From assembly GCF_004193775.1 (NCBI RefSeq), contig NC_041006.1, positions 20,431,365-20,495,364 on the forward strand: a DNA stretch of 64,000 bases. Reading direction: 5' to 3'. Below are positions 28,446-53,439 of the stretch, one piece after another. Every line of letters begins with the position of its first letter. Positions within the stretch are counted from its first letter, which is position 1. This DNA comes from Glycine soja. Lineage: Eukaryota; Streptophyta; Magnoliopsida; Fabales; Fabaceae. Both the position numbers and the translations under genes were made by a program. The notes under the pieces are model-generated. The model was not told the DNA's origin. It did not search any database and saw only the letters and a program-made list of their open reading frames with translations.

Positions 28446-29226
28446 ATGGCTCCGAAAAAGCTTTCCGCAAAGAGGTCTAGGAGAGACGCCGCGGCTAAAG
28501 GAACCAGTGCCACCCCCGAGTTTGATAGCCACCGTTTCGGGAGCACCGAGCACCAGCAGCGCTTGGAGGCCATCAAAGGATGGTCGTTCCACAGAGAGAG
28601 GGGCTTCCAGCTCAGAGAGGATGAGTACACAAATTTTCAGGAGGAGATAGCTCGCTGACATTGGACGTCGCTGGTGACTCCCATGGCTAAGTTTGACCCT
28701 GAGGTAGTCCTGGAGTTTTATGCTAATGCTTGGCCCACAGAGGAGGGAGTGCGAGACATGCGTTCATGGGTGAGGGGTCAGTGGATTCCTTTTGACGTAG
28801 ATGCCCTCAGCCAGTTCCTAGGTGACCCGCTAGTGTTGGAGGAAGGCCAGGAGTGCGAGTTCAGCCAGAGGAGGAACATGGCCAATGGGTTCGACGAGGA
28901 GGCCATTGCTCAGCTGTTATGCACACCGGGGCAGGATTTCGCCCGGAACGCTGCAGGGAGGCAAGTGTGGATCATGCGCACCAGCATCACCACCTTGACC
29001 CAGACGTGGATGACATTGATGCCTAGCAATGTCTTGCCTAGCGATCATAACTCCGATCTCCCTCTGCCAAAGTGTCAGTTGATGTATGCCATCTTGACAC
29101 GGATGAGCGTCCATGTGGCCCAGGTGATTGCTGACAACATCTACTTGTTTGCAGGTATGCCACCCACAAGGCACCCCTTAGACCCGGATAAGTCTAACAG
29201 GGCCCTAGGGTTTCCGGCATTGATCA
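28446..29226 (+). pseudogene. Retroelement-associated ORF after pol (plant transposon protein-like), truncated
   Basis: ATG 28446 opens a basic N-terminus (MAPKKLSAKRSRRDAAAKG), then EAIKGWSFHRERGFQL. A TGA at 28656 interrupts it (probably CGA to TGA). The frame goes on with MAKFDPEVVLEFYANAWP, SWVRGQWIPFDVDALSQFLG, IMRTSITTLTQTWMTLMPSN and LPKCQLMYAILTRMSVHVAQ. I recognise this as the common 'putative plant transposon protein' domain found next to gypsy elements in legumes; its function is not known. About 260 codons in, after a PALI segment (about 29215-29225), the reading runs directly into centromeric satellite, so the C-terminal part is missing. It could be the post-pol ORF of element B or part of a separate truncated element. 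Confidence 0.65.
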
Positions 29227-32200
29227 TGACCATTTCAATTTCTCGAGAGCTTCTGTTGTTCAATTTCGAGAGTCTCAATATGTAATGCGCCTGAATCAGA
29301 CATCCGAGTGAAAAGTTATAACAATTTGAATTTCTCGAGAGCTTTTGTTGTTCAATTTCGAGCGTCTCTATATGTGATGCGCCTGAATCAGACATCCGAG
29401 TTAAAAGTTATGACCATTTGAATTGCTCGAGAGCTTTCGTTGTTCAATTTCGAGCGTCTCAATATGTGATACGCCTGAATCTGACATCCGAGTTAAGAGT
29501 TGTGACCTTTCAAATTTCTCGAGAGCTTCCGTTGTTCATTTTCGAGCGTCTCGATATATTATGCGCCTGAATCAAACCTCCCTGTGAAAAGTTATGACCA
29601 TTTGAAATTCTTGAGACCTTCCGTTGTTCAACTTCGAGCGTTTCGATATATTATCTTCCTGAATCGGACTTCCGTGTGAAGTTATAACCATTTGAATTGC
29701 TTGAGAACTTTCGTTGTTCAATTTCGAGCGTCTCTATATGTGATACGCCTGAATCGGACATCCGAGTTAAAAGTTAAGACCATCTGAATTTCTCGAGAGC
29801 TTCCGTTGTCCAATTTTGAGCGTCTCGATATATTATGCGTCTGAATCTGACCTCCGTGTGAAAAGTTATGACCTTTTCAATTTCTCGAGAACTTTCATTG
29901 TTCAATTTCGAGTGTCTCGATATGTGATGCGCCTGAATCGGACATCTGAGTGAAATGTGATGACCATTTCAATTTCTCGAGAGCTTCTATTGTTCAATTT
30001 CGAGCGCCTCGATATGTAATGGGCTTCAATCGGACATCTAAGTGAAAAGTTATGACCATTTGAATTTCTCGAGAGCTTCTATTGTTCAATTTCGAGTGTC
30101 TCTATATGTGATGCGCCTCAATGAGACATCTGAGTTAAAAGTTATGACCATTTTTGAATTTTTCGAGAGCTTCCGGTTTCCAATTTTGAGCGTCTCGATA
30201 ATTATACGCCTAAATGTGACCACCGTGTGAAAAGTTATGACCATTTGAATTTGTCGAGAGCTTCTGTTGTTTAATTTCAAGCGCTCGATATGTGATGCGC
30301 CTAAATCGAACATCCGAGTTAAAAGTTATGGCGATTTGAATTTCTCGAGAGCTTCCCGTATTCAATTTTGAGCGTCTCGACAAATGATGCACCCGAATCG
30401 GACATTCGTGTGAAAAGTTAGGACCACTTGAATTTCTCGAGAGCTTCGTTGTTCAATTTCGAGCGTCTCGATATGTAATATGCCTAAATCGGACATCCGA
30501 GTGAAAAGTTTTGACCATTCGAAATTCTCGAGAGCTTCCGTTGTTCAATTTCAAGCGTCTCGATATGTGATGTGCCTGAATCAGACATCCTAGGGAAAAT
30601 TGATGACCATTTGAATTTCTTGAGAGCTTTCATTGTTCAATTTCGAGCATCTCGATATGTAATGTGCCAGAATCCGACATCCGAGTTAAAAGTTATGACC
30701 TTTCGAATTTCTAGAGAGCTTCCGTTGTTCATTTTCGAGCGTCTCGATATATTATGCGCCCGAATCGGACATCCGAGTTAAAAGTTATGACCATTTGAAT
30801 TGCTCAAGAGCTTTCGTTGTTCAATTTCGAGCGTCTCAATATGTGATACGTTTGAATCTGACATCTGAGTTAAAAGTTATGACCTTTCGAATTTCTCGAG
30901 AGCTTCCGTTGTTCATTTTCGAGCGTCTCGATATATTATGCGCCTGAATAGAACCTCCCTGTGAAAAGTTATGACCATTTGAAATTCCCGATACCTTCCG
31001 CTGTTCAATTTCGAGCGTGTGGATATATTATCCGCCTGAATTGGACTTCCGTGTGAAAGGTTATGACCATTTGAATTGCTCGAGAACTTTCGTTGTTCAA
31101 TTTCGAGCGTCTCTATATGTGATACGCCTGAATCGGACATCCGAGTTAAAAGTTATGACCATTTGAATTTCTCGAGAGCTTCCGTTGTCCAATTTCGAAC
31201 GTCTCGATATATTATGCGCCTGAATCTGACCTCCGTGTGAAAAGTTATGACCATTTGAATTTCTCGAGACCTTTCATTGTTCAATTTCAAGCGTCTCAAT
31301 ATGTGATGCGCCAGAATCGGACATACGTGTGAATTGTGATGACCATTTCAATTCCTCGAGAGCTTCTGTTGTTCAATTTCAAGCGTCTCGATATGTAATG
31401 CGCCTGAATCAGACGTCTAAGGGAAAAGTTGTGACCATTTGAATTGCTCGAGAACTTTCGTTGTTCAATTTTGAGCGTCTCTATATGTGATGTGCCTAAA
31501 TTAGACATCCGAGTTAAATGTTATGACCATTTTGAATTTTTCGAGAGCTTCCGATTTCCAATTTCGAGCGTCTCGATATATTATGCGCCTGAATCTGACC
31601 TCCGTGTGAAAAGTTATCACCATTTGAATTTGTCGAGAGCTTCTGTTCTTTAATTTCAGGCTTCTCGATATGTGATGTGCATGAATCGAACATCCGAGTT
31701 AAAAGTTATGGCGATTTGAATTTCTCGAAAGCTTCCGGTATTTAATTTTGAGCATCTCGACACATGATGCGCCCGAATTGGACATCCGTGTGAAAAGTTA
31801 GGACCACTTGAATCTCTCGAGAGCTTCGTTATTCAATTTGGAGCGTCTCGATATGTAATGCGCCTGAATCAGACATCCGAGTGAAAAGTTATGACCATTT
31901 GAATTTCTCAAGAGCTTCCGTTGTTCAATTTCGAGCATCTCGATATGTAATGCGCCTGAATCTGACATCCGAGTTAAAAGTTATGACCTTCTGAATTTCT
32001 CGAGAGCTTCCTTTGTTCATTTTCGAGCGTCTCGATATATTATGCGCCTGAATCGAACCTCCCTGTGAAAACTTATGACCATTTGAAATTCCTAAGACCT
32101 TCCGTTCAATTTCGAGCGTGTCAATATATTATCCGCCTGAATCGGACTTCCGTGTGAAAAGTTATGACCATTTGAATTCCTCGAGAACTTTTATTGTTCA

Positions 32201-33749
32201 ATTTCGAGCGTCTCTATATGTGATACGCCTGAATCAGACATCCGAGTTAAAAGTTATGACCAGTTGAATTTATCGAGAGCTTCCGTTGTCCAATTTCGAG
32301 CGTCTCAATATATTATGCGCCTGAATTTGACCTCCGTGTGAAAATTTAAGATCATTTGAATTTCTCGAGAACTTTCATTGTTTAATTTCAAGCGTCTCGA
32401 TATGTGATGCGCCAGAATCGGACATACGTGTGAAATGTGATGACCATTTCAATTCCTCGAGAGCTTTTGTTATTCAATTTCGAGCGTCTCGATATGTAAT
32501 GCGCCTGAATCAGACGTCTAAGTGAAAAGTTATGACCATTTGAATTGCTCGAGAACTTTCGTTGTTCAATTTAGAGCGTCTCTATATGTGATGCACCTAA
32601 ATTAGACATCCGAGTTAAAAGTTATGACCATTTTGAATTTTACGAGAGCTTCCGGTTTCCAATTTCGAGCGTCTCGATATATTATGCGCCTGAATCTGAC
32701 CTCCATGTGAAAAGTTATGACCATTTGAATTTGTCGAGAGCTTCTGGTCTTTAATTTCAAGCTTCTCGATATGTGATGTGCCTGAATCGAACATCCGAGT
32801 TAAAAGTTATGGCGATTTGAATTTCCCGAGAGCTTCCGGTATTTAATTTTGAGCATCTCGACACATGATGCGCATGAATAGGACATCCGTGTGAAAAGTT
32901 AGGACCACTAGAATTTCTCGAGAGCTTCGTTGTTCAATTTCGAGCGACTCGATATGTAATGCGCCTGAATCGGACATCCGAGTGAAAAGTTATGACCATT
33001 TGCATTTCTCGAGAGCTTCCGTCGTTCAATTTCAAGCGTCTCGATATATTATGCGCCTGAATCTGACCAGCGTGTGAAAAGTTATGACAATTTGAATTTC
33101 TCGAGAACTTCGTTTTCAATTTCGAGCGTCTCGATATGTGATGCGCCTGAATCGGACATCTGAGTGAAAAGTGATGACCATTTCAATTTCTCGAGAGCTT
33201 CCTTTGTTCAATTTCGAGCATCTCGATATCTAATTCGCCAGAATCCGACATCCTTGTTAAAAGTTATGACCTTTCGAATTTCTCGAGAGCTTCCGTTGTT
33301 CATTTTTTAGCGTCTCGATATATTATGCGCCTGAATCGGATATCCGAGTTAAAAGTTATGACAATTTGAATTGCTCGAGAGCTTCCGTTGTTCAATTTCG
33401 AGCGTCTCAATATGCATACGCCTGAATCTGACATCCGAATTAAAAGTTATGACCTTTCAAATTTCTCGAGAGCTTCCGTTGTACATTTTCGAGCGTCTCG
33501 ATATATTATGTGCCTGAATCTGACCAGCGTGTGAAAAGTTATGACAATTTGAATTTCTCGAGAGCTTCATTGTTCAATTTTGAGCGTCTCGATATGTGAT
33601 GCGCCTAAATCGGACATCCGAGTGAAAAGTCATGACCATTTGAATTTCTCGAGAGCTTCCGTTGTTCAATTTCGAGCATCTCGATATGTAATGTGCCTGA
33701 ATCCGACATCCGAGTTAAAAGTTATGACCTTCTGAATTTCTCGAGAGCT

Positions 33750-33830
33750 TCCGTTGAAATTGAACCTCCCTGTGAAAAGTTATGACCTTCTGAATCGAAC
33801 CTCCCTGTGAAAAGTTATGACCAATTGAAA
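33750..33830. repeat. Disrupted satellite monomers (short internal duplication/deletion)
   Basis: A monomer breaks after GAGAGCTTCCGTTG into a 36-bp-spaced repeat of GAACCTCCCTGTGAAAAGTT (33762 and 33798). The 92-bp phase is lost here. Confidence 0.75.
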
Positions 33831-36478
33831 TTCCCGAGACCTTCCGTTGTTTAATGTCGAGCGTGTCGATATATTATCCGCCTGAATTTGACCTCAGTGT
33901 GAAAAGTTATGACCATTTGAATTTCTCGAAAACTTTCATTGTTCAATTTCGAGCGTCTCGATATGTGATGCGCCTGAATCGGACATACGAGTGAAATCTG
34001 ATGACCATTTCAATTTCTCGAGAGCTTCTATTGTTCAATTTCGAGCGTCTCGATATGTAATGCGCCTGAATCAGACGTCTAAGTGAAAAGTTATGACCAT
34101 TTGAATTGCTCGAGAACTTTCGTTGTTCAATTTCGAGCGTCTCTATATGTGATGCGCCTAAATTAGACATCCGAGTTAAAAGTTATGACCATTTTAAATT
34201 TTTCGAGAGCTTCCGGTTGCCAATTTTGAGCGTCTCGATATATTATGCGCCTGAATCTGACCTCCGTGTGAAAAGTTATGACCATTTGAATTTGTCGAGA
34301 GCTTCTGTTGTTTAATTTCAAGCGTCTCGATATGTGATACATCTGAATCGAACATCCGAGTTAAAAGTTATGGCGATTTGAATATCTCGAGAGCTTCCGG
34401 TATTCAATTTTGAGCGTCTCGACACATAATGCGCTCGAATCGGACATCCGTGTGAAAAGTTAGGACTATTTGAATTTCTCGAGAGCTTCATTGTTCAATT
34501 TCGAGCGTCTCAATATGTAATGCACTTGAATCGGACATCCGAGAGAAAAGTTATGACCATTTGAATTTCTCGAGACCTTCCGTTGTTCAATTTCGAGCGA
34601 CTTAATATATTATGCTCTTGAACCGGACCTCCATGTGAAAAGTTATGACCATTTGAATTTCTCAAGAGCCTTCGTTGTTCAATTTGGAGCGTCTCGATAT
34701 GTGATGCACCTGAATCGGACATCCGAGTGAAAAGTGATGACCATTTGAATTTCCCGAGAGCTTCCGTTGTTCAATTTCGAGCATCTCAATATGTAATGCG
34801 CCTGAATCTGACATTCGAGTTAAAAGTTATGACCTTTCGAATTTCTCGAGAACTTCCGTTGTTCATTTTCGAGCGTCTCATTATATTATGCGCCTGAATC
34901 GGACATCCGAGTTAAAAGTTATGACCATTTGAATTGCTCATGATCTTCCGTTGTTCACTTTCGAGTGTCTCAATATGTGATACGCCTGAATCTGACATCC
35001 GAATTAAAAGTTATGACCTTTCGAATTTCTCGAGAGCTTTCGTGGTTCATTTTCTAGCGTCTCAATATATTATGCGCCTGAATCTGACCTGCGTGTGAAA
35101 AGTTATGAACATTTGAATTTCTCGACAGCTTCATTGTTCAATTTGGAGCGTCTCGATATGTGATGCGCCTGAATCAGACATCTGAGTGAAAAGTTATGAC
35201 CATTTGAATTTCTCAAGAGCTTCCGTTGTCCAATTTCGAGCATCTCGATATGTAATGCGCCTGAATCTGACATCCGAGTTAAAAGTTATGACCTTCTGAA
35301 TTTCTCGAGAGCTTCCGTTGTTCATTTTCGAGCGTCTCGATATATTATGTGCCTGAATCGAACCTCCCTGTGAAAACTTATGACCATTTGAAATTCCTGA
35401 GACCCTCCGTTGTTCAATTTCGAGCGTGTCAATATATTATCCGCCTGAATCGGACTTCCGTGTGAAAAGTTATGACCATTTGAATTCCTCGAGAACTTTT
35501 ATTCTTCAATTTCGAGCATCTTTATATGTCATACGCCTTAATCGGACATCCGAGTTAAAAGTTATGACCATTTGAATTTCTTGAGAGCTTCCGTTGTCCA
35601 ATTTCGAGCGTCTCGATATATTATGCGCCTGAATCTGACCTCCGTGTGAAACGTTATGACCATTTGAATTTCTCGAAAACTTTCATTGTTCAATTTCGAG
35701 CGTCTCGATATGTAATGCGCCTGAATCGGACATTCGAGTGAAAAGTTATGACCATTTGAATTTCTTGAGAGCTTACGTTGTTCAATTTCGAACGTCTCGA
35801 TATGTGATGCGCCTAAATCTTGCATCCGACTGAAAAGTTATGACAATTTGAATTTCTCGAGAGCTTCTGTTGTTCAATTTCGAGCGTCTCGACATATTAT
35901 GCGCCCGAATCGGAGGTCCATTTGAATAGTTAAACCATATGAATTTCTCGAGAGCTTCTGTTGTTCTATTTCGAGCGTCTCGATATGTAATGTGCCTTAA
36001 TCGGACATCCGAGTGAATAGTTATGACCATTTGAATTTCTCGATAGCTTCCGTTGTTCAATTTTGAGCGTCTCGATATGTGATGCGCGTGAATCGTACAT
36101 CTGAGAGAAAAGTTATGGCCATTTGAATTTCTCGAGATCTTTCGTTGGTCAATTACGAGAGTCTCGATATGTGATGCGCCTGAATCAGACATCCGAGTTA
36201 AAAGTTATGACCATTTGAATTTTTCGAGAGCTTCCGTTGCCCAATTGGGACTGTCTCGATATATTATGCGCCTGAATCTGACTTCCGTGTGAAAAGTAAT
36301 GACCATTTGAATTTGTCGAGAGCTTCTGTTGTTTAATTTCAAGCGTCTCGATATGTGATGCGCCCGAATGGGACATCCGAGTCAAAAGTTATGACCATTT
36401 GAATTGCTCGAGAACTTCCGTTGTTGAATTTCAAGCGTCTCTATATGTGATGCACCTGAATCGGAGATCCGACTGAAA

Positions 36479-36483
36479 AGTTA
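36479..36483. repeat. Left target duplication AGTTA of the inverted retroelement
   Basis: AGTTA comes from the satellite word AAAAGTTATGAC. The right copy is at 41106-41110, after which the monomer continues TGACGATTTGAATTTC. Confidence 0.85.
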
Positions 36484-37031
36484 TGATGAGAATCATGAAA
36501 CTGGCCAAATACAGGCTAAAGGCCCAAGTGGAGAAGGACAAAGCCCCCGAGTGGAGAAGGATGAAGGCCCAAGTGGAGAAGGATGAAGGCCTAAGTGGAG
36601 AAGGATGAAAGCCCAGAGGCAGAGACACTATCAAGACAATTAATTGTTGCTGAAGGCCCAAACTAATTTCAAGGCCCAAGTTAAATATGTTTTTAGTTAT
36701 AATTTTTATTTATTGTAATTTTGGCCCAACCTGTTTAGAAGGCCCATGTCTATTTTTATCTTTTTGTTCAGATACACTATAAGTATTGGTTTTTGTTTTG
36801 AATAAAGAAAAATTTTTGGCATTTTCATAAAATTGGGTGAGAGTTTCTCTTCGGGTTCCTTGTTGAACCAATATCAGACTTATCAAGGTAATCCTTGTGG
36901 CGTCTACCTTAACTTATCTTCCTTCACCGGAAGTGGCGTCTACCCTGACTTATCTTCCTTCACCGGAAGTGGCGTCATCTAAACCTTCGTAGCCTGTATC
37001 AAACGATCCGCTCCTACTCAGGTTCACATCA
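36484..37031 (+). mobile_element. LTR F of the composite (548 bp)
   Basis: It starts TGATGAGAATCATGAAACTGG and ends GGTTCACATCA, with TGATG/CATCA ends. The U3 holds four copies of a GTGGAGAAGGAYRAAGGCC unit (R has five), and the U5 holds two copies of a 36-bp GCGTCTACC..CCGGAAGTG unit (R has three). Start and end style and the primer site match CRM-type centromeric chromoviruses as I remember them. Confidence 0.85.
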
Positions 37032-37033
37032 TC

Positions 37034-37045
37034 TGGTATCAGAGC
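37034..37045 (+). promoter_or_regulatory. Primer-binding site F (initiator tRNA-Met)
   Basis: TGGTATCAGAGC, the standard plant initiator tRNA-Met site, two bases after LTR F. Confidence 0.9.
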
Positions 37046-37452
37046 TTCGGCTCTTGATACAGGTTCTATCCTATCCTGTTATTTTTCTTTGTAATTTGTC
37101 CAGGTTCGTGTTTTGTCCTTGTTCTGTTATTTGTTTTCTTGTTTGCGTCTTGTTGTGTTCTTGTTTGTGTCTTTGTTTCGTTCTTGTTCTTGTTCTTGTC
37201 ACGTTCTTGTTCTTGTTCTTGTTTCTTGTGTCTTTCACACTTTGTGTAAAAAAAATTGCAAAAAAATTTGAAAAAAAAAGTGGGTGTTTGATCTTTGAAC
37301 ACGAAATTGAGGCATTTAGAGGTATTTTTTTGGAAAGAAAATCGTGGATCAAATCCCCTATTCTAGATTCTCCTCTGAATTCTGAGCGTTTTGATATATA
37401 GTGGGCCTCAAACGGACAACCGTAGCAAAAGTTATGAGCATTTGAAGCTTAC

Positions 37453-37745
37453 TTGTCATATCTGTTATCTTATCTGCTATCCTATCTATTATCTTATTTG
37501 TTATCATATCTGTTATCCAAATTAAATCTAATTTGTTATCCAAATTTGATCTGTTATCCAAATCAAATCAAATCAAAATTTGTTATCCAAATCAAATCAA
37601 GTCTAATCTGTTATCCAAATCAAATCCAATCTGCTATCGAAATCAAGTCTAATCTGTTATCCAAATCAAATCTAAATCCAAATCAAGTCTAATCTGTTAA
37701 CCAAAATCAAATCAGATTTGTTATCCAAATTAAATCTGCTATAAT
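37453..37745 (+). repeat. AT-rich tandem repeat in leader F (CTGTTATC and ATCCAAATCAAAT words)
   Basis: A run of TCTGTTATCTTATCTGC-like units followed by about ten ATCCAAATCAAATC-like units. The mirror copy is at 39860-40110. The open frames on both strands here arise from the repeat. Confidence 0.85.
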
Positions 37746-37968
37746 TAAACTGTCTTTCCTGTTATATACCTTGTGTGTCTAATTTGATTCATCCAGGAAC
37801 TTAAGAGGGAGTGAGTGGTAAAAGGCAAGAGTAAAAACATCACACAAAAGCCTATATTGAGAGCATCCAACACGAGTGAACTACCATCAAAGAGACAAAC
37901 ACGTGAGTAGAGTGTGGTGAGGTCCTGCATTTTTTTTAATTTACTGCAAAATTCTTTGTTCCTTAATC

Positions 37969-38739
37969 ATGGCAAGAGCTGGTGACAATGGTGGTGTATA
38001 TCATCAACTGGACGAATCTCAGCGCTTATTTCTGGACGCGTGGACTACACAAATGCAACGTTTGTTGAACCGTAACAAAGAAGAGCCCTACAAACGAATA
38101 GCCAAATCTTCCTCGTTTACTCTTAAACCTCTATCCCCTAGAGAAGTGTGTGATGACCAAATCGGAATGAGAGAAAAGAGAGAACAAGAGAAAGAAAATA
38201 GTGAGGCACCACAAAGGAATATGAAAAAGAAGAGTGATACACCCGAGGAAAAGAGTGATACACATAAGAGAGAGAGTGATACACATGAGAGAAAATTTAA
38301 TTATTTTGCAGAGGCGAGTGAAGTGAGGAAAGTGTTACCTGCTCATGAACCACTCAATCTACAGTATTGCAAAGACAGTAAAATTTCTACTGATAATTCT
38401 AATGAGTTTACTATTTCTATTTCTCCTAGTGTTCAACCCTTATTGCAGGAATTTAAAAATGTCTTTCCTAAGGAGATTCCTCATGGACTGCCACCTTCAA
38501 GAGGCATAGAACATCAAGTTGATCTCCTCCCTGGAGCTTCATTGCCTAATAGGCCAACTTACAAAAGCAATCCCCAAGAGATTCAACGTAAGGATGTGCA
38601 TGCCAAAGTTGAGTATGTGAAAAGATTGTATGACCAAGTGAAGGTGCAAATTGCAAAGAAGAATGAAAGCTATGCCAAGCAAGCCAACAAGAAAAGGAAG
38701 GAAGTGGTACTTGAACCCGGTGATGATCCTTCAAATTAG
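37969..38739 (+). pseudogene. CDS fragment F: chromovirus gag/pol deletion product
   Basis: 256 codons from ATG 37969. The N-terminus (MARAGDNGGVYHQLDESQRL) resembles a chromovirus gag start. A Lys/Glu-rich spacer with repeated KSDTxEx words follows, then a lead-in to reverse transcriptase (FKNVFPKEIPHGLPPSRGIE, residues about 162-182). There it jumps, after RPTYKSNPQE, straight to KVEYVKRLYDQVKVQIAKKN, which belongs near the C-terminal end of integrase. Gag core, RT core, RNase H and integrase core are gone. The final codons and stop (38737) come from the joined U3 of the opposite copy. It is open but cannot make enzymes; mobility would need an intact relative. Confidence 0.75.
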
Positions 38740-38940
38740 TTTGGGCCTTCAGCAACAATTAATTGTCTTGATAGTGTCTCTGCCTCTGGGCCTTCATCTT
38801 TCTCCACTTAGGCCTTCATCCTTCTCCACTTGGGCCTTCATCCTTCTCCACTCGGGGGCTTTGTCCTTCTCCACTTGGGCCTTCGTCCTTCTCCACTTGG
38901 GCCTTTAGACTGTATTTGGCCAGTTTCATGATTCTCATCA
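38733..38940 (-). mobile_element. Partial 3' LTR (U3 only) of copy R
   Basis: Reading on the minus strand from 38940 it starts TGATGAGAATCATGAAACTG, directly after a polypurine tract, with five GTGGAGAAGG units as in LTR R. It stops near CCCAAACTAATTT, where the sequence passes into the inverted copy F. R and U5 are missing. Confidence 0.85.
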
Positions 38941-39625
38941 TTCCCTCCTTCTTGGAAAACATTTGTCCTCAAATGTCCAAGATTATCACCGGGTTCAAGT
39001 ACCACTTCCTTCCTTTTCTTGCGGGCTTGCTTGGCATAGCTTTCATTCTTCTTTGCAATTTGCACCTTCACTTGGTCATACAATCTTTTCACATACTCAA
39101 CTTTGACCTGTGCATCCTTATGCTGAGTCTCTTGGGGCTTGCTGTTGTAAGTTGGCTTGTTAGGCAATGAAGCTTCTAGAAGGAGATCAACTTGATGTTC
39201 TATGCTTCTTGAAGGTGGCAGTCCATGAGGAATCTCCTTGGAAAAGACATCTTTAAATTCCTGCAATAAGGGTTGAACACTAGGAGAAACATAAATAGTT
39301 AACTGATTAGAATTATCACTCTCTCTCTTTTGTGTATCACTCTTTTCCTCGGGTGTATCACTCTTCTTTTTCATATTCCTTTGTGGAGCCTCACTATTTT
39401 CTTTCGCTTGTTCTCTCTTTTCTCTCATTCTGATTTGGTCATCACACACTTCTCTAGGGGATAGAGGTTTAAGATAAACGAGGAAGATTTGACTATTCGT
39501 CTGTAGGGCTCTTCTTTGTTACGATTCAACAAACGTTGCATTTGTGTAGTCCACGCGTCCAGAAATAAGCGCTGAGATTCGTCCAGTTGATGATATACAC
39601 CACCATTGTCACCAGCTCTTGCCAT
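38838..39625 (-). pseudogene. CDS fragment R: chromovirus gag/pol deletion product
   Basis: Homologous to fragment F, on the opposite strand. It starts at ATG 39625 with the same MARAGDNGGVYHQLDESQRL but is frameshifted near 39470 and continues in another frame to 38838. It lacks about 37 residues present in F (between a KRESD word and NSN, around 39310). It jumps from the RT lead-in to the integrase tail at the same place as F, so that deletion is older than the composite. Unlike F it keeps the polyprotein end (LRTNVFQEGGNDENHE) and runs on into the U3 of the 3' LTR, as CRM-type polyproteins are known to do. Confidence 0.75.
38941..38955 (-). promoter_or_regulatory. Polypurine tract of copy R
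   Basis: On the minus strand CCAAGAAGGAGGGAA directly precedes the partial 3' LTR. Copy F has lost the corresponding segment at the central junction. Confidence 0.75.
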
Positions 39626-39859
39626 GATTAAGGAACAAAGAATTTTGCAGTAAATTAAAAAAAAATTAAGGACCTCACCACACTCTACTCACTTGTTTCT
39701 CTCTTTGATGGTAGTTCACTCGTGTTTGATGCTCTCAATATTGGCTTTTGTGTGATGTTTTCACTCTTGCCTTTTACCACTCACTCCTTCTTAAGTTCCT
39801 GGATGAATCAAATTAGACACACAAGGTATATAACAGGAAAGACAGTTTAGTTATCGCAG

Positions 39860-40110
39860 ACTGTGTAGCAGATTTAATTTGGATAACAAATCAGATTTGA
39901 TTTTGGTTAACAGATTAGACTTGATTTGGATTTAGATTTGATTTGGATAACAGATTAGACTTGATTTGATTTGGATAAAAAATTTTGATTTGATTTGATT
40001 TGGATAACAGATAAGATTTGGATAACAAATTAGATTTAATTTGGATAACAAATATGATAACAAATAAGATAATAGATATGATAGTAGATAAGATAACAGA
40101 TATGACAAGT
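39860..40110 (-). repeat. AT-rich tandem repeat in leader R
   Basis: GATTTGATTTGGATAAC-like units followed by GATAACAGATATGA-like units, the inverted counterpart of 37453-37745. Confidence 0.85.
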
Positions 40111-40500
40111 AAACTTCAAATGCTCATAACTTTTGTTACGGTTGTCCGTTTGAGGCCCACTATATATCAAAACGCTCAGAATTCATAAGAGAATCCAGAT
40201 AAGGGGATTTGCTCCACGATTTTCTTTCCAAAAAAAACACCTCTAAATGCCTCAATTTCGTGTTCAAAGATCAAACGCCCACTTTTTTTTCAAAATTTCT
40301 GCAACCTTTTTTTTTTTACACAAAGTGTGAAAGACACAAGAAACAAGAACAAGAACGCAAATAACAGAACAAAAGACGCAAACAAGAACGAAACAAGATG
40401 TAAACAAAAACTCAAATAACAAAACAAGGACAAAACACGAACCTAGACAAATTACAAAGAAAAATAATAGGATAGGATAGAACCTGTATCAAGAGCCGAA

Positions 40501-40512
40501 GCTATGATACCA
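40501..40512 (-). promoter_or_regulatory. Primer-binding site R (one mismatch)
   Basis: The minus strand reads TGGTATCATAGC, against TGGTATCAGAGC in copy F; one base change in the initiator tRNA-Met site. Confidence 0.85.
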
Positions 40513-40514
40513 GA

Positions 40515-41105
40515 TGATGCGAACCTGAGTAGGAGCGGATTGTTTGATACAGGCTACGAAGGTTTGGATGACGCCACTTCCGGTGAAGGAAGATAAGTCA
40601 GGGTAGACGCAACTTCCGATGAAGGAAGATAAGTCTGGGTAGACGCCACTTCCGGTGAAGGAAGATAAGTCAAGGTAGACGCCACAAGGATTACCTTGAT
40701 AAGTCTGATGATATTGGTTCAACAAGGAACCCGAAGAGAAACTCTCACCCAATTTTATGAAAATGCCAAAAGTTTTTCTTTATTCAAAACAAAAACCAAT
40801 ACTTATAGTGTATCTGAACAAAAAGATAAAAATAGACATGGGCCTTCTAAACAGGTTGGGCCAAAATTACAATAAATAAAAATTATAACTAAAAACATAT
40901 TTAACTTGGGCCTTCAGCAACAATTAATTGTCTTGATAGTGTCTCTACCTCTGGGCCATCATCCTTCTCCACTTAGGCCTTCATCCTTCTCCACTTGGGC
41001 CTTCATCCTTCTCCACTCGGGGGTTTTGTCCTTCTCCACTTAGGCCTTCGTCCTTCTCCACTTGGGCCTTTAGCCTGTATTTGGCCAGTTTCATGATTCT
41101 CATCA
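40515..41105 (-). mobile_element. LTR R of the composite (591 bp)
   Basis: On the minus strand it starts TGATGAGAATCATGAAACTG at 41105 and ends GGTTCGCATCA at 40515. It is longer than LTR F mainly because of extra U3 and U5 repeat units. The outer end abuts AGTTA at 41106-41110. Confidence 0.85.
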
Positions 41106-43426
41106 AGTTATGACGATTTGAATTTCTCGAGAGCTTCCGTTGTTTAATTTTGAGCGTCTCAATATGTGATGCGCCTGAATCGGACATCCGAGTCAAAAGT
41201 TCTGACCATTTGAATTTCTCGAGAGCTTCTGTTTTTCAATTTGTAGCGTCACGATATGTGATGCGTCTGAATCGGACATCCGAGTTAAAAGTTATGACCA
41301 TTTGAATTTCTCGAGAGCTTCCGTTGTTCAATTTCGAGCGTCTTGATATATTATGCTCTTGAACTGGACCTCCGTGTGAAAAGTTATGACCATTTGAATT
41401 TCTCGAGAGCTTTCGTTGTTCAATTTCTAGCGTCTCGATATGTGATGCGCCTGAATCGGACATCCGAGTTAAAAGTTATGGCCATTTGAATTTCTCGAGA
41501 GCTTCCGTTGTTCAATTTCGAGCGTCTGGATATGTCATGCTCCTGAATCGGACATCTGAGTTAAAAGTTATGACCATTTGAATTTTAAGACAACTTCTGT
41601 TGTTCAATTTCGTCCGTCTCGATATATTACGTGCCTGAATCTAACCTCCGTGTGAAAAGTGATGGCCATTTGAATTTCTCGAGAGCTTCAGTTATTCAAT
41701 TTCGTGCGTCTCGACATATTATATGCCCGAATCGGACAACCGAGCGAAAAGTTATGACAATTTGAATTTCTCGAGAGCTTTTCTTGTTCAATTTCGAGCG
41801 TGTCGATATGTGATGCGCCTGAATTGGACCTCCGAGTCAAAAGTTCTAACCATCTTAATTTCTTGAGAGCTACCGTTGTTCAATTTTGGGTGTCTTGATA
41901 TGTGTTGCGCCTGAATCGGGCATTCGAGTGAAAAGATATGACCATTTGAATTGCTCGAGAGCTTCCGTTGTTCAATTTCTAGCGTCTTGATTCGTGATGC
42001 GCCTGAATAGGACATCTGAGTGAAAAGTTATGACCATTCGAATTTCAAGACAGCTTTCGTTGTTCAATTTCTTCTGTGTCGATATATTACACGACTGAAT
42101 CTGACCTCCATGTGAAAAGTGATGGCCACTTGAATTTCTCGAGAGCTTTCCAATTTCGAGCGTCTCGACATATTATACGCCCGAATCAGACAACCGAGTG
42201 AAAAGTTATGACAATTTGAATTTCTCGAGAGCTTCCATTGTTCAATTTCGAGCGTGTCAATATGTGATGCGCCTGAATCGGACCTCTGAGTCAAAAGTTC
42301 TGACCATTTGAATTTCTCGAGAGCTACCGTTGTTCCATTTTGGGCGTCTTGATATGTGATGCGCCTGAATCGGACATTAGAGTGAAAAGTTATGACCATT
42401 TAAATTTCTCGAGAGCTTCCGTTGTTCAATTTCGAGCGTCTCGACATATTATGCGCCCGAATTGGACGTCCATTTGAATAGTTAAGACAATATGAATTTC
42501 TCGAGAGCTTCCGTTGTTGAATTTTGAGCGTCTAGATATGAGATGCGCCTGAATCGGACATCCGAGTAATAAGTTATGACCATTTGAATTTCTTGAGAGC
42601 TTCAGTTGTTCAATTTCGTGCGTCTCGATATGTGATACGCCCGAATCGGACAACCGAGTGAAAAGTTATGACAATTTAAATTTCTCGAGAGCTTCGTTTG
42701 TTCAATTTCTAACCACTCGATTTGTGATGCGCCTGAATCGGAAATCCGAGTAAAACGTTATGACCATTTGAATTTCTCGAGAGCTACCATTGTTTAATTT
42801 TGGGCGTCTTGATATGTGATGCGCCTGAATCGGACATTCGAGTGAAAAGTTATGACAATTTGAATTTCTCGAAAGCTTCCGTTGTTCAATTTCTAGCGTC
42901 TCTATCTGTGATACGCCCGAATCGGACAACCGAGTGAAAAGTTATGACAATTTGAATTTCTAGAGAGCTTCGTTTGTTCAATTTCTAGCCTCTCGATTTA
43001 TGATGCGCCTGAATCGGAAATCCGAGTCAAACTTTACGACCATTTGAATTTCTCGAGAGCTACCATTGTTCAATTTTGGGCGTCTTGATATGTGATGCGC
43101 CCGAATCGGACATTCGAAAGAAAAGTTATGATAATTTGAATTTCTCGAGAGCTTCCGTTGTTCAATTTCTAGCGTCTCGATTTGTGATGCGCCTGAATCG
43201 GAAATCTGAGTCAAACTTTACGACCATTTGAATTTCTCGAGAGCTACCATTGTTCAATTTTGGGCGTCTTGATATGTGATACGCCCGAATCGGACATTCG
43301 AAAGAAAATTTATGACAATTTGAATTTCTCGAGAGCTTCCGTTGTTCAATTTCTAGCGTCTCGATTTGTGATGCGCCTGAATCTGAAATCCGAGTTAAAA
43401 GTTATGACCATTTGAATTTCTTGAGA

Positions 43427-44910
43427 GCTTCTGGTTTTCAATTTCTAGTGTCACGATATGTGATGCGTCTGAATCGGACATCCGAGTTAAAAGTTATGAC
43501 CATTTGAATTTCTCGAGAGCTTCCGTTGTTCAATTTCGAGCGTCTTGACATATTATGCTCTTGAGTTGGACCTCCGTGTGAAAAGTTATGACCATTTGAA
43601 TTTCTCGAGAGCTTCCGTTGTTCAATTTCTAGCGTCTCGATATGTGATGCGCCTGAATCGGACATCCGAGTTAAAAGTTATGGCCATTTGAATTTGTCGA
43701 GAGCTTCCGTTGTTCAATTTCGAGCGTGTCGATATGTGATGCGCCTGAATCGGACCTCCGAGTCCAAAGTTCTGACCATTTGAATTTCTCGAGAGCTAGC
43801 GTTGTTCCATTTTGGGCGTCTTGATATGTGATGCGCCTGAATCGGACATTAGAGTGAAAAGTTATGACCATTTAAATTTCTCGAGAGCTTCCGTTGTTCA
43901 ATTTCGAGCGTCTCGACATATTATGCGCCCGAATCGGACATCCATTTGAATAGTTAAGACCCAATGAATTTCTCGAGAGCTTCCGTTGTTGAATTTTGAG
44001 CGTCTAGATATGTGATGCGCCTGAATCGGACATCCGAGTAATAAGTTATGACCATTTGAATTTCTCGAGAGCTTCCGTTGTTCAATTTCTAGCGTCTCGA
44101 TTTGTGATGCGCCTGAATCGGAAATCCGAGTTAAAAGTTATTACCATTTGAATTTCTCGAGAGCTTCTGGTTTTCAATTTCTAGCGTCACGATATGTGAT
44201 GCGTCTTAATCGGACATCCGAGTTAAAAGTTATGACCATTTGAATTTCTCGAGAGCTTCCGTTGTTCAATTTCGAGCGTCTTGATATATTATGCTCCTGA
44301 GCTGGACCTCCGTGTGAAAAGTTATGACCATTTGAATTTCTCGAGAGCTTCTGTTGTTCAATTTCTAGCGTCTCGATATGTGATGCGCCTGAATCGGACA
44401 TCCGAGTTAAAAGTTATGGCCATTTGAATTTTTCGAGAGCTTCCGTTTTTCAATTTTGAGCGTGTCGATATGTGATGCGCCTGAATCGGACCTCCGAGTC
44501 AAAAGTTCTGACCATTTGAATTTCTCGAGAGCTAGCGTTGTTCCATTTTGGGCGTCTTGATATGTGATGCGCCTGAATCGGACATTAGAGTGAAAAGTTA
44601 TGACCATTTAAATTTCTCGAGAGCTTCCGTTGTTCAATTTCGAGCGTCTCGACATATTATGCGCCCGAATCGGACGTCCATTTGAATAGTTAAGACCAAA
44701 TAAATTTCTCGAGAGCTTCCGTTGTTGAATTTTGAGCGTCTAGATATGTGATGCGCCTGAATCGGAAATCCGAGTTAAAAGTTATGACCATTTGAATTTC
44801 TCGAGAGCTTCTGTTTTTCAATTTCTAGCGTCACGATATGTGATGCGTCTGAATCGGACATCCGAGTTAAAAGTTATGACCATTTGAATAGATAAGACCA
44901 AATGAATTTC
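43427..44910. repeat. 736-bp (8-monomer) tandem duplication in the satellite
   Basis: The block from GTCACGATATGTGATGCGTC at 43447 recurs at 44183 and, at 645-bp spacing, at 44828. The monomer order between them is the same, including CGTCCATTTGAATAGTTAAG and GCTAGCGTTGTTCCATT variants. Confidence 0.75.
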
Positions 44911-45439
44911 TCGAGAGATTCCGTTGTTCAATTTCGAGCGTCTGAATATGTGATCCGCCTGAATCGGACATCTGAGTTAAAAGTTATGACCATTTGAATT
45001 TCAAGACAACTTCCATTGTTCAATTTCGTCCGTGTCGATATATTACGCGCCTGAATCTAACCTCCGTGTGAAAAGTGATGGCCATTTGAATTTCTCGAGA
45101 GGTTCAGTTATTCAATTTCGTGCGTCTCGACATATTATACGCCCGAATCGGACAACCGAGCGAAAAGTTATGACAATTTGAATTTCTCGAGAGCTTTTCT
45201 TGTTCAATTTCGAGCGTGTCGATATGTGATGCGCCTGAATCGGACCTCCGAGTCAAAAGTTCTGACCATTTGAATTTCTCGAGAGCTACCGTTGTTCAAT
45301 TTTGGGCGTCTTTATATGTGATGCGCCTAAATCGGACATTCGAGTGAAAAGTTATGACCATTTAAATTTCTTGAGAGCTTCCGTTGCTCAATTTCGAGCA
45401 TCTCGACATATTATGCGCCCGAATTGGACATCCATTTGA

Positions 45440-48310
45440 ATAGATAAGACCAAATGAATTTCTCGAGAGATTCCGTTGTTCAATTTCGAGTGTCTGAATA
45501 TGTGATGCGCCTGAATCGGACATCTGAGTTAAATGTTATGACCATTTGAATTTCAAGACAGCTTCCGTTGTTCAATTTCGTCCGTGTCGATATATTACGT
45601 GCCTGAATCTAACCTCCGTGTGAAAAGTGATGGCCATTTGAATTTCTCGAGAGCTTCAGTTATTCAATTTCGTACGTCTCGACATTTTATACGCCCGAAT
45701 CGGACAACCGAGCGAAATGTTATGACAATTTGAATTTCTCGAGAGCTTTTCTTGTTCAATTTCGAGCGTGTCGATATGTGATGCGCCTGAATTGGACCTC
45801 CGAGTCAAAAGTTCTAACCATCTTAATTTCTTGAGAGCTACCGTTGTTCAATTTTGGGTGTCTTGATATGTGTTGCGCCTGAATCGGGCATTCGAGTGAA
45901 AAGATATGACCATTTGAATTGCTCGAGAGCTTCCGTTGTTCAATTTCAAGCGTCTCTATCTGTGATACGCCCGAATCGGACAACCCAGTGAAAAGTTATG
46001 ACAATTTGAATTGCTCGAGAGCTTCCGTTGTTCAATTTCTAGCGTCTCGATTCGTGATGCGCCTGAATAGGACATCTGAGTGAAAAGTTATGACCATTCG
46101 AATTTCAAGACAGCTTCCGTTGTTCAATTTCTTCCGTGTCGATATATTACACGCCTGAATCTGACCACCGTGTGAAAAGTGATGGCCACTTGAATTTCTC
46201 GAGAGCTTCAATTCTTCAATTTCTAGCGTCTCGACATATTATACGCCCGAATCAGACAACCGAGTGAAAAGTTATGACAATTTGAATTTCTCGAGAGCTT
46301 CCATTGTTCAATTTCGAGCGTGTCGATATGTGATGCGCCTGAATCGGACATTAGAGTGAAAAGTTATGACCATTTACATTTCTTGAGAGCTTCCATTGTT
46401 CAATTTCGAGGGACTCGACATATTATGCGCCCGAATCGGACGTCCATTTGAATAGTTAAGACCATATGAATTTCTCGAGAGCTTCCGTTGTTGAATTTTG
46501 AGCGTCTAGATATGTGATGCGCCTGAATCGGACATCCGAGTAATAAGTTATGACCATTTGAATTTCTTGAGAGCATCCGTTGTTCAATTTCGTGCGTCTT
46601 GATATGTGATACGCCCGAATCGGACAACCGAGTGAAAAGTTATGACAATTTGAATTTCTCGAGAGCTTCGTTTGTTCAATTTCTAGCCTCTCGATTTGTG
46701 ATGCGCCTAAATCGGAAATCCGAGTCAAACATTATGACCATTTGAATTTCTCGAGAGCTACCATTGTTCAATTTTGGGCGTCTTGATATGTGATGCGCCT
46801 GAATCGGACATTCGAGTGAAAAGTTATGACAATTTGAATTTCTCGAGAGCTTCTGTTGTTCAATTTCTAGCGTCTCTATCTGTGATATGCCCGAATCGGA
46901 CAACCGAGTGAAAAGTTATGACAATTTGAATTTCTCGAGAGCTTCATTTGTTCAATTTCTAGCCTCTCGATTTGTGATGCGCCAGAATCGGAAATCTGAG
47001 TCAAACGTTATGACCATTTGAATTTCTCGAGAGCTACCATTGTTCAATTTTGGGCGTCTTGATATGTGATGCGCCCGAATCGGACATTCGAGTGAAAAGT
47101 TATGACAATTTGAATTTCTCGAGAGCTTCCGTTGTTCAATTTCTAGCGTTTCGATTTGTGATGCGCCTGAATCGGAAATCCGAGTTAAAAGTTATGACCA
47201 TTTGAATTTCTGGAGAGCTTCTGTTTTTCAATTTGTAGCGTCACTATATGTGATGCGTCTGAATCGGACATCCGAGTTAAAAGTTATGACCATTTGAATT
47301 TCTCGAGAGCTTCCGTTGTTCAATTTCGAGCGTCTTGATATATTATGCTCTTGAGCTGGACCTCCGTGTGAAAAGTTATGACCTTTTGAATTTCTCGAGA
47401 GCCTCCGTTGTTCAATTTCTAGCGTCTAGATATGAGATGCGCCTGAATCGGACATCCGAGTTAAAAGTTATGGCCATTTGAATTTCTCGAGAACTTCCGT
47501 TGTTCAATTTCGAGCGTGTCGATATGTGATGCGCCTGAATCGGACCTCCGAGTCAAAAGTTCTGACCATTTGAATTTCTCGAGAGCTACTGTTGTTCAAT
47601 TTTGGGCGTCTTTATATGTGATGCGCCTAAATTGGACATTCGAGTGAAAAGTTATGACCATTTAAATTTCTCGAGAGATTTCGTTGTTCAATTTCGAGCA
47701 TCTCGACATATTATGCGCCCAAATTGGACATCCATTTGAATGGATAAGACCAAATGAATTTCTCGAGAGATTCCGTTGTTCAATTTCGAGCGTCTGGATA
47801 TGTGATGCGCCTGAATCAGACATCTGAGTTAAAAGTTATGACCATTTGAATTTCAAGACAGCTTCCGTTGTTCAATTTTGTCCGTGTCGATATATTACGC
47901 GCCTGAATCTAACCTCCGTGTGAAAAGTGATGGCCATTTGAATTTCTCGAGAGCTTTTCTTGTTCAATTTCGAGCGTGTCGATATGTGATGCGCCTGAAT
48001 TGGACCTCCGAGTCAAAAGTTCTGACCATTTTAATTTCTTGAGAGCTACCGCTGTTCAATTTTGGGCGTCTTGATATTGGATGCGCCTGAATCGGGCATT
48101 CGAGTGAAAAGATATAACCATTTGAATTGCTCGAGAGCTTCCGTTGTTCAATTTCAAGCGTCTCTATCTGTGATACGCCCGAATCGGACAACCCAGTGAA
48201 AAGTTATGACAATTTGAATTGCTCGAGAGCTTCCGCTGTTCAATTTCTAGCGTCTCGATTCGTGATGCGCCTGAATAGGACATCTGAGTGAAAAGTTATG
48301 ACCATTTGAA
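45440..48310. repeat. About 2208-bp (24-monomer) periodicity in the satellite
   Basis: The variant run around 45735-46030 (TTTTCTTGTTCAATTTCGAGC, GGGCATTCGAGTGAAAAGATAT) recurs at 47943-48235, a spacing of 2208 = 24 x 92. A related run is at 41770-42010. Order is only partly kept, so this is a decayed higher-order repeat. Confidence 0.55.
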
Positions 48311-51300
48311 TTTCAAGACAGCTTCCGTTGTTCAATTTCGTTCGTGTCGATATATTACGCGCCTGAATCTGACCTCCGTGTGAAAAGTTATGACTATTTG
48401 AATTTCTCGAGAGCTTCCGTTGTTCAATTTCGAGCGTGTCGATATGTGATGCGCCAGAATCCGACATCCGAGTCATAATTTATGACCATTTGAATTTTTC
48501 GAGAGCTTCCGTTGTCCAATTTCGAACGTCTCGATATATTATGCGCCTGAATCTGACTTCCGTGTGAAAAGTTATGACCATTTGAATTTGTCGAGAGCTT
48601 CTGTTGTTTAATTTCAAGCGTCTCGATATGTGATGCGCATGAAACGGACATCCGAGTCAAAATTTATGACCATTTGAATTTCTCGAGAGTTTCCGTTGTT
48701 CTATTTCGAGCGTCTCGACATATTACGCGCCAGAATCAGACATGCATTTGAATAGTTTGGACCATATGAATTTCAAGACAGCTTCCGTTCTTCAATTTCG
48801 AGCGTCTCGACATATTGTACGCCCGAATCGGACAACCGAGTGAAGAATTATGACAATTTCAATTTCTCGAGAGCTTCCGTTGTTCAATTTCGGGCTTATC
48901 GATATGTGATGCGCCTGAATCGGACCTCCGAGTCAAAAGTTCTGACCATTTGAATTTCTCGAGAGCTACTGTTGTTCAATTTTGGGCGTCTAGATATGTG
49001 ATGCGCCTGAATCGGACATCCGAGTCATAATTTATGACCATTTGAAATTTTCGAGAGCTTCCGTTGTTCAATTTCGAGCGTCTCGACATATTATGCACCC
49101 GAATCACACATGCATTTGAATAGTTTACACCATACGAATTTCAAAACAACTTCCGTTGTTCAATTTCGTTTGTGTCGATATATTACGCGTCTGAATCTGA
49201 CCTCCGTTTGAATACTTATGACAATTTGAATTTCTCGAGAGCTTCCGTTGTTCAATTTCTAGCGTGTCGATATGTGATGCGCCTGAATCGGACATCCGAG
49301 TTAAAAGTTATGACCATTTAATTTGCTCGAGAGCTTCTGTTGTTTAATTTCAAGCGTCTCGTTATGTGTTGCGCCTGAATAGAAAATCCGAGTCAAAATT
49401 TATGACCATTTGAATTTCTCGACAGTTTCCGTTGTTCAATTTTGAGCGTCTCGACATATTATGCGCCCGAATCGGACGTCCATTTGAATAGTTAAGACCA
49501 TATGAATTTCTCGAGAGCTTCCGTTGTTGATTTTTGAGCGTTTAGATATGTGATGCACCTGAATCAGACATCCGAGTAATAAGTTATGACCATTTGAATT
49601 TCTCGAGAGCTTCCGTTGTTCAATTTCAAGCGACTCGATATGTGATGCGCCTGAATCGGACTTTCGAGTGAAAAGTTATGACCATTTAAATTTCTCGAGA
49701 GCTTCCGTTGTTCAATTTCGTGCGTCCCGATATGTGATACGCCCGAATCGGACAACCGAGTGAAAAGTTATGACAATTTGAATTTCTCGAGAGCTTCGTT
49801 TGTTCAATTTCTAGCCTCTCGATCTGTGATGCGCCTGAATCGGAAATCCGAGTCAAACGTTATGACCATTTGAATTTCTCGAGAGCTACCATTGTTCCAT
49901 TTTGGGCGTCTTGATATGTGATGCGCCTGAATCGGACATTCGAGTGAAAAGTTATGACAATTTGAATTTCTCGAGAGCTTCCGTTGTTCAATTTCTAGCG
50001 TCTCTATTTGTGATACGCCCGAATCGGACAACCGAGTGAAAAGTTATGACAATTTGAATTTCTCGAGAGTTTCGTTTGTTCAATTTCTAGCCTCTCGATT
50101 TGTGATGCGCCTGAATCGGAAATCCGAGTCAAATGTTATGACCATTTGAATTTCTCGAGAGCTACCATTGTTCAATTTTAGGCGTCTTGATCTGTGATTC
50201 GACTGAATCGGACATTCGAGTGAAAAGTTATGACAATTTGAATTTCTCGAGAGCTTCCGTTGTTCAATTTCTAGCGTCTCGATTTGTGATGCGCCTGAAT
50301 CGGAAATCCGAGTTAAAAGTTATGACCATTTGAAATTCTTCAGAGCTTCTGTTTTTCAATTTCTAGCGTCACGATATGTGATGCGTCTGAATCGGACATT
50401 CGAGTTAAAAGTTATGACCATTTGAATTTCTCGAGAGCTTCTGTTGTTCAATTTCGAGCGTCTTGATATATTATGCTCTTGAGCTGGACATCCGTGTGAA
50501 AAGTTATGACCATTTGAATTTCTCGTGAGCTTCCGTAGTTCAATTTCTAGCGTCTCGATATGTGATGCGCCTGAATCGGACATCCGAGTTAAAAGTTATG
50601 GCCATTTAAATTTCTCGAGAGCTTCCGTTGTTCAATTTCGAGCGTGTCGATATGTGATGTGCCTGAATCGGACCTCTGAGTCAAAAGTTCTGACCATTTG
50701 AATTTCTCAAGAGCTACTGTTTTTCAATTTTGCACGTCTTTATATGTGATGCACCTGAATCGGACACTCGAGTGCAAAGTTATGACCATTCAAATTTCTC
50801 GAGAGCTTCCGTTGTTCAATTTCGAGCATCTCGACATATTATGCGCCCGAATTGGACATCCATTTGAATAGATAAGACCAAATGAATTTCTCGAGAGCTT
50901 CCATTGCTCAATGTTGAGCATCTAGATATGTGATGCGCCTGAATCGGACATCCGAGTAAAAAGTCATGACCATTTGAATTTCTCGAGAGCTTCCGTTATT
51001 CTATTTCGAGCATCTCGATATGTGATGCGCCTGAATGGGACATCCGAGCAAAAAGTTCTGACAATTTGAATTTCTCGAGAGCTTTCGTTGTTGAATTTCT
51101 AAAGTCTCAATGATGCGCCTGAATCAGACATCCGAGTTAAAAGTTATGACCATTTGAATTTTTCGAGAGCTTCCGTTGTCCAATTTCGAGCGTCTCGATA
51201 TATTATGCGCCTGGATCTGACTTCCGTGTGAAAAGTTATTACCATTTGAATTTGTCGAGAGCTTCTATTGTTTAATTTCAAGCGTCTCGATATGTGATGC

Positions 51301-53350: not shown

Positions 53351-53439
53351 ATGACCATTTGAATTTGTCGAGAGTTCTGTTGTTTAATTTCAAGCGTCTC
53401 GATATGTGATGCGCCTGAATCGGACATCCGAATTAAAAG

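Follow-up and report, generated by a model that had tools for sequence, protein, structure and literature searches.

A tail-to-tail pair of CRM-like retrotransposons with U3 tips at both ends in a Glycine soja satellite array: a candidate single integration of a mixed cDNA dimer

Results

A composite of two subfamilies inside satellite DNA

Within a 64,000-bp stretch of Glycine soja DNA (hereafter the window), positions 36484–41105 lie in a soybean-type centromere and consist of two truncated Ty3 elements that together make an imperfect inverted repeat and show features of CRM (centromeric chromovirus) elements. The two arms are arranged tail-to-tail, so that the composite has a U3 tip on both sides. 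A new finding of this analysis is that they match two different subfamilies (long and short) of one Glycine family. Of the possible origins, we prefer, with a probability of about 0.55, that a tail-to-tail cDNA dimer of mixed subfamily was integrated once; the main rival is a pair of convergent insertions that a deletion later fused.

Architecture of the composite block

The features of the block and its surroundings are given in Table 1. At the left edge, ...GACTGAAAAGTTA is followed by TGATGAGAATCATG, and at the right edge, CATGATTCTCATCA is followed by AGTTATGACGATTTG; this direct reading confirms the first-pass annotation, which had assigned two U3 outer ends in opposite orientation to the 4.6-kb unit. 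The limits of the outer LTRs were set by the primer binding site (PBS) and TG..CA. We take the PBS motif to be of the initiator tRNA-Met type.

Table 1. Features of the composite block and its flanks (positions in the window)
Feature	Position	Strand	Remark
Left flanking 92-bp satellite array	29226..36483	+	CentGm-1 type, judging by monomer length
Left AGTTA copy of 5-bp target duplication	36479..36483		direct reading
5' LTR, plus arm	36484..37031	+	548 bp; outer U3 tip TGATGAGAATCATG, inner tip ...ACATCA
PBS, plus arm	37034..37045	+	TGGTATCAGAGC
A-rich stretch, plus arm 5' untranslated region	37248..37279	+	
CentGm-like stretch, plus arm	37378..37446	+	local score 61
Open frame, plus arm	37969..38739	+	256 codons; internally deleted gag-pol remnant, long subfamily
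Central tail-to-tail junction	38728..38730		probable 3-base overlap, CCT
3' LTR fragment, minus arm	38728..38940	-	first 213 bp (U3 part)
Open frame, minus arm	38838..39449	-	203 codons, short subfamily
Polypurine tract, minus arm	38941..38953	-	AAGAAGGAGGGAA; adjoins its 3' LTR
CentGm-like stretch, minus arm	40115..40183	-	position as in plus arm; inverted repeat and blastn
PBS, minus arm	40501..40512	-	TGGTATCATAGC; one change relative to plus arm
5' LTR, minus arm	40515..41105	-	591 bp; outer U3 tip at 41105
Right AGTTA copy	41106..41110		direct reading
Right flanking 92-bp satellite array	41106..64000	+	orientation as left array

The inner side of the composite is asymmetric. The minus arm, together with its open frame, continues through the polypurine tract (PPT) into the 3' LTR, of which ~380–400 bp are lost; the plus arm stops ~40 bp short of the 3' LTR start expected from the minus arm and has lost that LTR entirely, and its frame ends ~10 bases beyond the central junction. 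The junction falls inside the interval proposed for it in the first pass (38727–38733). Judging from the DDP codons of relatives, CCT probably belongs to both of its sides, as a 3-base overlap.

Group A of the CRM clade is characterized, in the accessible text of PMC3059260, by TGATG/CATCA LTR tips, a 5-bp duplication, and a tRNA-Met PBS, and a number of its elements have an A-rich 5' leader. In the composite, (i) the LTRs carry the tips TGATG and CATCA; (ii) a 5-bp duplication flanks the whole block, each arm alone having one edge; (iii) by position, a PBS follows the 5' LTR and a PPT precedes the 3' LTR; and (iv) a polyprotein frame runs into the 3' LTR in the minus arm, as it also does in the relatives P0001 and P0010. 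In tips, duplication, PBS, A-rich leader, and frame into the 3' LTR, the block is like CRM group A and soybean GmCR as described in the available parts of PMC3059260 and PMC11447526, the likeness to GmCR being drawn from described features. It is unlike both in that its arms are internally deleted, non-autonomous, and paired in inverted orientation.

Arms from two subfamilies

The plus arm frame has 98% amino acid identity to P0001 and 96% to P0002 (long form), and the minus arm frame has 96–97% to P0010 and 94–95% to P0013 (short form). A Pfam search with both frames found no domain above the cut-off; reverse transcriptase and integrase domains are absent from both arms, and the relatives P0025 and P0015 carry RVT_1 and SH3_Tf2-1, the latter presumably integrase-linked. 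Another relative, P0004, is a mosaic with a long-form front and a short-form back. Such mosaics suggest recombination between the long and short lineages, as expected of co-packaged RNAs, with ancestral mixture as a possible alternative source. The LTR-tip 21-mer had one match each in viral_contigs and genome_contigs, with just 21–30 bases in common with the element, and a protein-guided scan of viral_contigs gave 8 pattern matches and 0 relatives.

Alignment of the two arms contains 97 mismatches in 2043 columns and several large indels, one of them of 114 bp. Differences are denser at 38391–38620 (23/230) than in the adjoining stretches (9/411). The low-complexity 5' leader (~37123–37245) aligns poorly, and its arm-to-arm figure of 10.8% is therefore an upper one. 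Divergence is lower in the outer LTRs (9 of 530 sites) than in the arm bodies (88 of 1513); the outer LTRs are further distinguished by indels of 22, 18, 3, and 36 bp. The minus arm's own two U3 copies (outer and inner) differ at 6/200 sites and share a 22-bp unit that the plus arm lacks.

These comparisons bear on the proposal of the first-pass annotation that two copies were joined in inverted orientation to give the cDNA from which the block came. Such joining is consistent with the data. Self-copying of one cDNA into a hairpin by self-priming, followed by integration, would yield two U3 ends and an inverted repeat as well, but the arms match two subfamilies and differ by the 114-bp indel and by the uneven distribution of mismatches; barring later gene conversion of most of an arm, this origin is as good as refuted. 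The match to two subfamilies also makes a foldback artefact very unlikely. Assemblies easily go wrong at long inverted repeats in satellite, through a foldback read or a collapsed repeat. Yet a foldback would produce identical arms, the window is without any N, and an exact LTR tip next to a matching AGTTA stands at each edge; we thus regard an assembly or sequencing error as improbable.

The target site

When the flanks are joined with a single AGTTA, the 92-bp monomer phase is unbroken, which agrees with the initial description of AGTTA on both sides of the whole unit in satellite that is otherwise continuous. The monomers next to the site start at 36391 and 36483. The insertion lies between AAAAGTTA and TGAC of the monomer. 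The accompanying statement that AAAAGTTATGAC is in every monomer was too strong, the exact 12-mer occurring 152 times in the window. The duplication is weaker evidence than it would be in unique DNA, because AGTTA is short (5 bp) and the motif is found repeatedly in the satellite (at the insertion phase in 191 of the window's 327 monomer borders). In a simulation of 400,000 trials in the window's array, random independent pairs of cuts shared their 5-mer in 0.59% of trials; in 0.39% they shared both the 5-mer and the phase.

In a register test, a common offset was sought by matching the monomers on either side of the site to the remainder of the array in the window. With 8 and 10 monomers per side, the offset +37 ranked high on the left and the right alike (rank sums 5 and 3, respectively); it was equaled by 4 and 3 of 120 shifted registers, and 57% and 39% of 154 ordinary control sites were equal or better. 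The right-hand similarity at +37, however, does not begin until four monomers away from the site. When 6 monomers per side were used, the rank sum of the best shared offset was 41, 114 of the 120 shifted registers were as good, and all 154 control sites were equal or better; tests with 3 and 4 monomers per side were also poor. A block common to four other places starts one monomer to the right of the site, not at the site.

Discussion

One integration or two

The first-pass annotation had offered, as an alternative, two separate insertions at the same satellite motif that were later joined by inversion or deletion. In this model, a long-form element on the plus strand and a short-form element on the minus strand would have entered convergently at the same phase of different monomers, and a later deletion with ~3 bp of shared sequence would have removed the two 3' ends facing each other along with the intervening satellite. 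The alternative survives every test that was run. It needs no inversion, since both flanking arrays run in the same direction and a deletion suffices. Short overlaps are seen in illegitimate joining, the breakpoints are close to the 3' ends that face each other, where a simple deletion would put them, and separate insertions could account for arms of two subfamilies. The array near the site is rearranged, as seen in the block shared with four other places, and the short register tests (3, 4, and 6 monomers per side) show no continuity. Moreover, post-insertion recombinant complexes outnumbered template-switch complexes by 20 to 2 in ~7 Mb of Triticeae sequence (PMC1950507). On the other hand, the same 5 bases of the 92-bp unit would have to be hit twice (0.4–0.6% if positions are random), the arms diverge less in their outer LTRs than in their bodies, and the clade-wide survey describes CRM elements without a sequence target (accessible text of PMC3059260). 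Two insertions are a serious possibility, to which we give somewhat less than even odds.

Several observations favor one integration of a mixed dimer: the single AGTTA pair in continuous phase, with its low rate of chance matches; outer LTRs more similar than the bodies and no more different than the minus arm's two U3 copies; and the mosaic relatives, which suggest recombination between the lineages. In both LTRs, the U3 tip matches the U5 tip at 9 of the first 11 positions (9 of all 14 compared). The TGATG/CATCA termini of the clade lead one to expect this likeness, which makes two U3 tips a plausible integrase substrate. CRM target duplications "varied substantially", and no apparent sequence target was found, in the available text of the survey (Neumann et al. 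2011, PMC3059260), which also favors one integration.

Other observations argue against it. An insertion hot spot would mimic everything, because the motif recurs at the same phase in most monomer borders. In a survey of 12 genomes, Glycine max among them, LTR-element insertions were associated with nucleosome-occupied sites and a weak palindrome preference (accessible text of PMC6911290), which could produce a phase preference in satellite. The 3' end losses of both arms exceed the needs of plain end joining, the 22-bp unit of the minus arm's two U3 copies speaks against one common U3 source, and the contrast between LTRs and bodies could instead reflect LTRs shared within the family. The 6-monomer register test does not support continuity across the site.

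Under the single-integration reading, RNAs of long-form and short-form members of one Glycine CRM-like family, presumably co-packaged, would have undergone reverse transcription together. Plus-strand synthesis of the short form would have proceeded ~213 bases into its 3' LTR before the strand was joined, inverted, to the long-form body, by template switch or end joining at the ~3 shared bases (CCT). The linear product would have a U3 tip at both ends and no U5 tip, and integrase may have joined both U3 tips to one target, producing the single AGTTA duplication. This order of events is inferred. Integration via two U3 ends, as first proposed, thus stands as the best single reading, though not as a demonstrated one. 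For the more specific claim, that a plant chromovirus integrase carried out germ-line full-site integration of an inverted heterodimer through two U3 tips, without U5, after co-reverse transcription of two-subfamily RNAs in one particle, we consider the odds to be even.

Relation to known retrotransposon complexes

The composite resembles the template-switch complexes of Angela, Squiq, and Opie (Sabot and Schulman 2007, PMC1950507), which are explained by the joining of two templates during reverse transcription, in having two bodies in one block, one 5-bp duplication, and similar outer LTRs. High similarity of the outermost LTRs is a criterion for such complexes, and here 9/530 sites differ; the flanking duplication is present as AGTTA on both sides, yet its motif recurs in the satellite. 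By contrast, those complexes have two complete cores with an internal third LTR shared between bodies described as of one orientation, whereas the bodies here are truncated and tail-to-tail, with U3 at both tips and an inner LTR reduced to the 213-bp U3 fragment. An inverted U3–U3 product should be rarer still than template-switch complexes, a point against one integration. Recombinant complexes from two adjacent insertions (PMC1950507) are similar to the composite in that two bodies are fused and intervening DNA is lost; they have two different target duplications and so no flanking pair, whereas the 5 bp match here. A literature search, covering mostly titles and abstract openings outside subscription papers, found no inverted U3–U3 integrated LTR element among the papers listed, which does not imply absence from print; the phrase "two U3 ends" had 0 occurrences among the 15 papers listed in one such search. 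Rice RIRE7 reportedly prefers the tandem repeat TrsD, going by a paper title.

Entry through two U3 tips would be an unusual way into a chromosome for such elements. If one integration took place, it shows that the integrase of a natural LTR element can work with two equal ends and that a plant centromere can take up inverted cDNA dimers. Long inverted repeats, which are able to seed hairpin RNA and rearrangement, could arise in this way.

Both arms also contain a CentGm-like stretch (Table 1), and the one in the plus arm scores above the maximum of 37 that was reached when this arm was resampled 200 times under a Markov model.

Architecture of the inverted block

The 4,622-bp block at 36484–41105 is an imperfect inverted repeat of two Ty3-type elements, placed tail to tail between 92-bp satellite stretches of equal direction. 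Given the order of parts in each arm (table below), both 3' ends abut in mid-block and both outer tips are therefore U3. The first-pass annotation had described opposite-facing U3 outer tips and AGTTA flanking the whole unit in continuous satellite, and both descriptions were borne out: the U3 tip TGATGAGAATCATG is found at both outer ends, AGTTA lies at the left and right edges, and the satellite phase is continuous across the block once one AGTTA is taken out.

Features of the plus (left) and minus (right) arms, in window coordinates
Feature	Position	Strand	Description
Plus arm LTR	36484-37031	+	548 bp, followed by PBS, A-rich leader and 256-codon frame
Plus arm inner end	38727-38730	+	arm stops
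Minus arm outer LTR	41105-40515	-	591 bp, followed by PBS, leader and a body shorter than that of the plus arm
Minus arm polypurine tract	38953-38941	-	
Minus arm 3' LTR piece	38940-38728	-	213 bp

The plus arm reads GATGATCCT at the central junction, matching its protein relatives P0001 and P0002, which encode DDP there, and the reversed LTR reads CCTT. CCT is thus probably common to both sides, its third codon base being supplied by the protein relatives. A single base adjoining the junction is unlike the LTR of the plus arm.

The block has TGATG/CATCA tips, a 5-bp duplication, a PBS motif that we take to be of the tRNA-Met type, an A-rich leader, and a frame entering the 3' LTR. RT and integrase domains are absent from both arms, and the putative CRM assignment is based on structural features. 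In these five traits the block resembles elements of the CRM clade and of group A within it, for which Neumann et al. (2011, PMC3059260) list the same traits. The soybean element GmCR is named in PMC11447526.

The two arms match different subfamilies

The two arm frames had 105 and 112 protein matches, most of them unnamed; those named were from Glycine max or G. soja, except for one Vigna entry and one Enterobacter entry, the latter probably plant contamination. The plus arm frame matched the long form of the family (P0001, 98% amino acid identity; P0002, 96%) and the minus arm frame the short form (P0010, 96–97%; P0013, 94–95%), whereas identity of each arm to the opposite form fell to 71–75%. 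With 54, 79, 20, and 18 member sequences in the P0001, P0002, P0010, and P0013 clusters, respectively (database entries, not genome copies), both forms clearly occur independently of the block, as judged from these sequences. The plus arm carries 114 bp more than the minus arm (38277–38390), equal to the 38-residue length gap between P0001 and P0010; because the long form exists apart from this locus, this segment is regular long-form sequence, not a post-insertion change. Searches of two DNA collections for second copies returned chance matches only.

Three further relatives (P0003, P0004, and P0012) are mosaics of the two subfamilies; in P0004, for example, the front is of the long form and the back of the short form. 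Such mosaics suggest that co-packaged RNAs recombined, or an older mixture.

One integration or two

Two insertions may have converged at one satellite phase and later been fused by deletion, a reading to which we give somewhat less than even odds. In its favor, the target motif is repeated through the array (152 exact 12-mers), and AGTTA occupies the insertion phase in 191 of 327 borders, so that an insertion hot spot of any kind would mimic a single event. Insertion linked to nucleosomes, which PMC6911290 describes for LTR elements in a set of 12 plant genomes with Glycine max among them, could create such a hot spot in satellite. Also on the side of two insertions, recombinant complexes outnumbered template-switch complexes tenfold (20 versus 2) in the only count found (PMC1950507), and the arms lack the DNA that would be lost in a deletion between two convergent elements. 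In favor of a single event, the same 5 bp in the same phase arose in only 0.39% of random independent pairs (0.59% when phase was ignored; 400,000 trials), and the CRM clade is described without a sequence target in the survey PMC3059260. The register of the satellite monomers across the site favored neither reading.

Comparison of the arms gave further points in favor of a single event: (i) the outer LTRs differed at 9/530 sites and the remainder of the arms at 88/1513 (Fisher p = 4e-5; p = 0.006 without the leader, 37032–37450); (ii) the minus arm outer and inner U3 differed at 6/200 sites, and the plus arm U3 differed from these copies at 4/178 and 3/178 sites, respectively, so the outer LTRs are as close as a pair from one insertion; and (iii) the first bases of the U3 and U5 tips were identical at 9 of 11 positions, which makes two U3 tips a plausible integrase substrate. 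A 22-bp unit common to both U3 copies of the minus arm is absent from the plus arm, a point in favor of two insertions.

Weighing these readings is a matter of judgement, not measurement. We set the prior for two insertions at roughly 10–50 to 1, which the 0.4–0.6% coincidence by itself would reverse several-fold. We also allow that insertions may favor a phase by a few per cent or more, which pulls the odds back and leaves a single integration slightly better than even.

Beyond the directly observed orientation, two sources, junction, duplication, and tip similarity, a single integration would have begun with long- and short-form RNAs reverse transcribed together. The plus strand extending in the short form's 3' LTR would have moved at about 3 bases (CCT) to the plus strand of the long form and copied back to its U3 tip, and integrase would then have acted on both U3 tips. 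Two broken cDNA ends could have been joined instead, and further routes to such a dimer would look alike.

Satellite and neighboring elements

An 18-bp unit kept in the inner U3 of the minus arm and in the plus arm is absent from the minus arm outer LTR; the loss, between direct repeats AAGGCCCAA, looks like slippage. The 5' leaders of both arms contain a 69-nt satellite-like stretch (37378–37446 and 40115–40183) that includes CAAAAGTTATGA. Its local score against the flanking satellite unit was 61 in the plus arm, compared with a maximum of 37 in 200 Markov resamples of that arm. The satellite may have originated in an element of this kind, or satellite sequence may have been captured by the element.

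A large Ty3-type element, recognized by eye at 19000–29225 with a pol-like frame of 735 codons (24193–26400), ends abruptly in satellite at 29224/29225, and no LTR tip was seen at that join. A 21-monomer higher-order repeat, about 1,928 bp in length, lies amid otherwise scrambled satellite at about 52000–60000, with lag-21 mean identities of 0.935–0.962 in two blocks.
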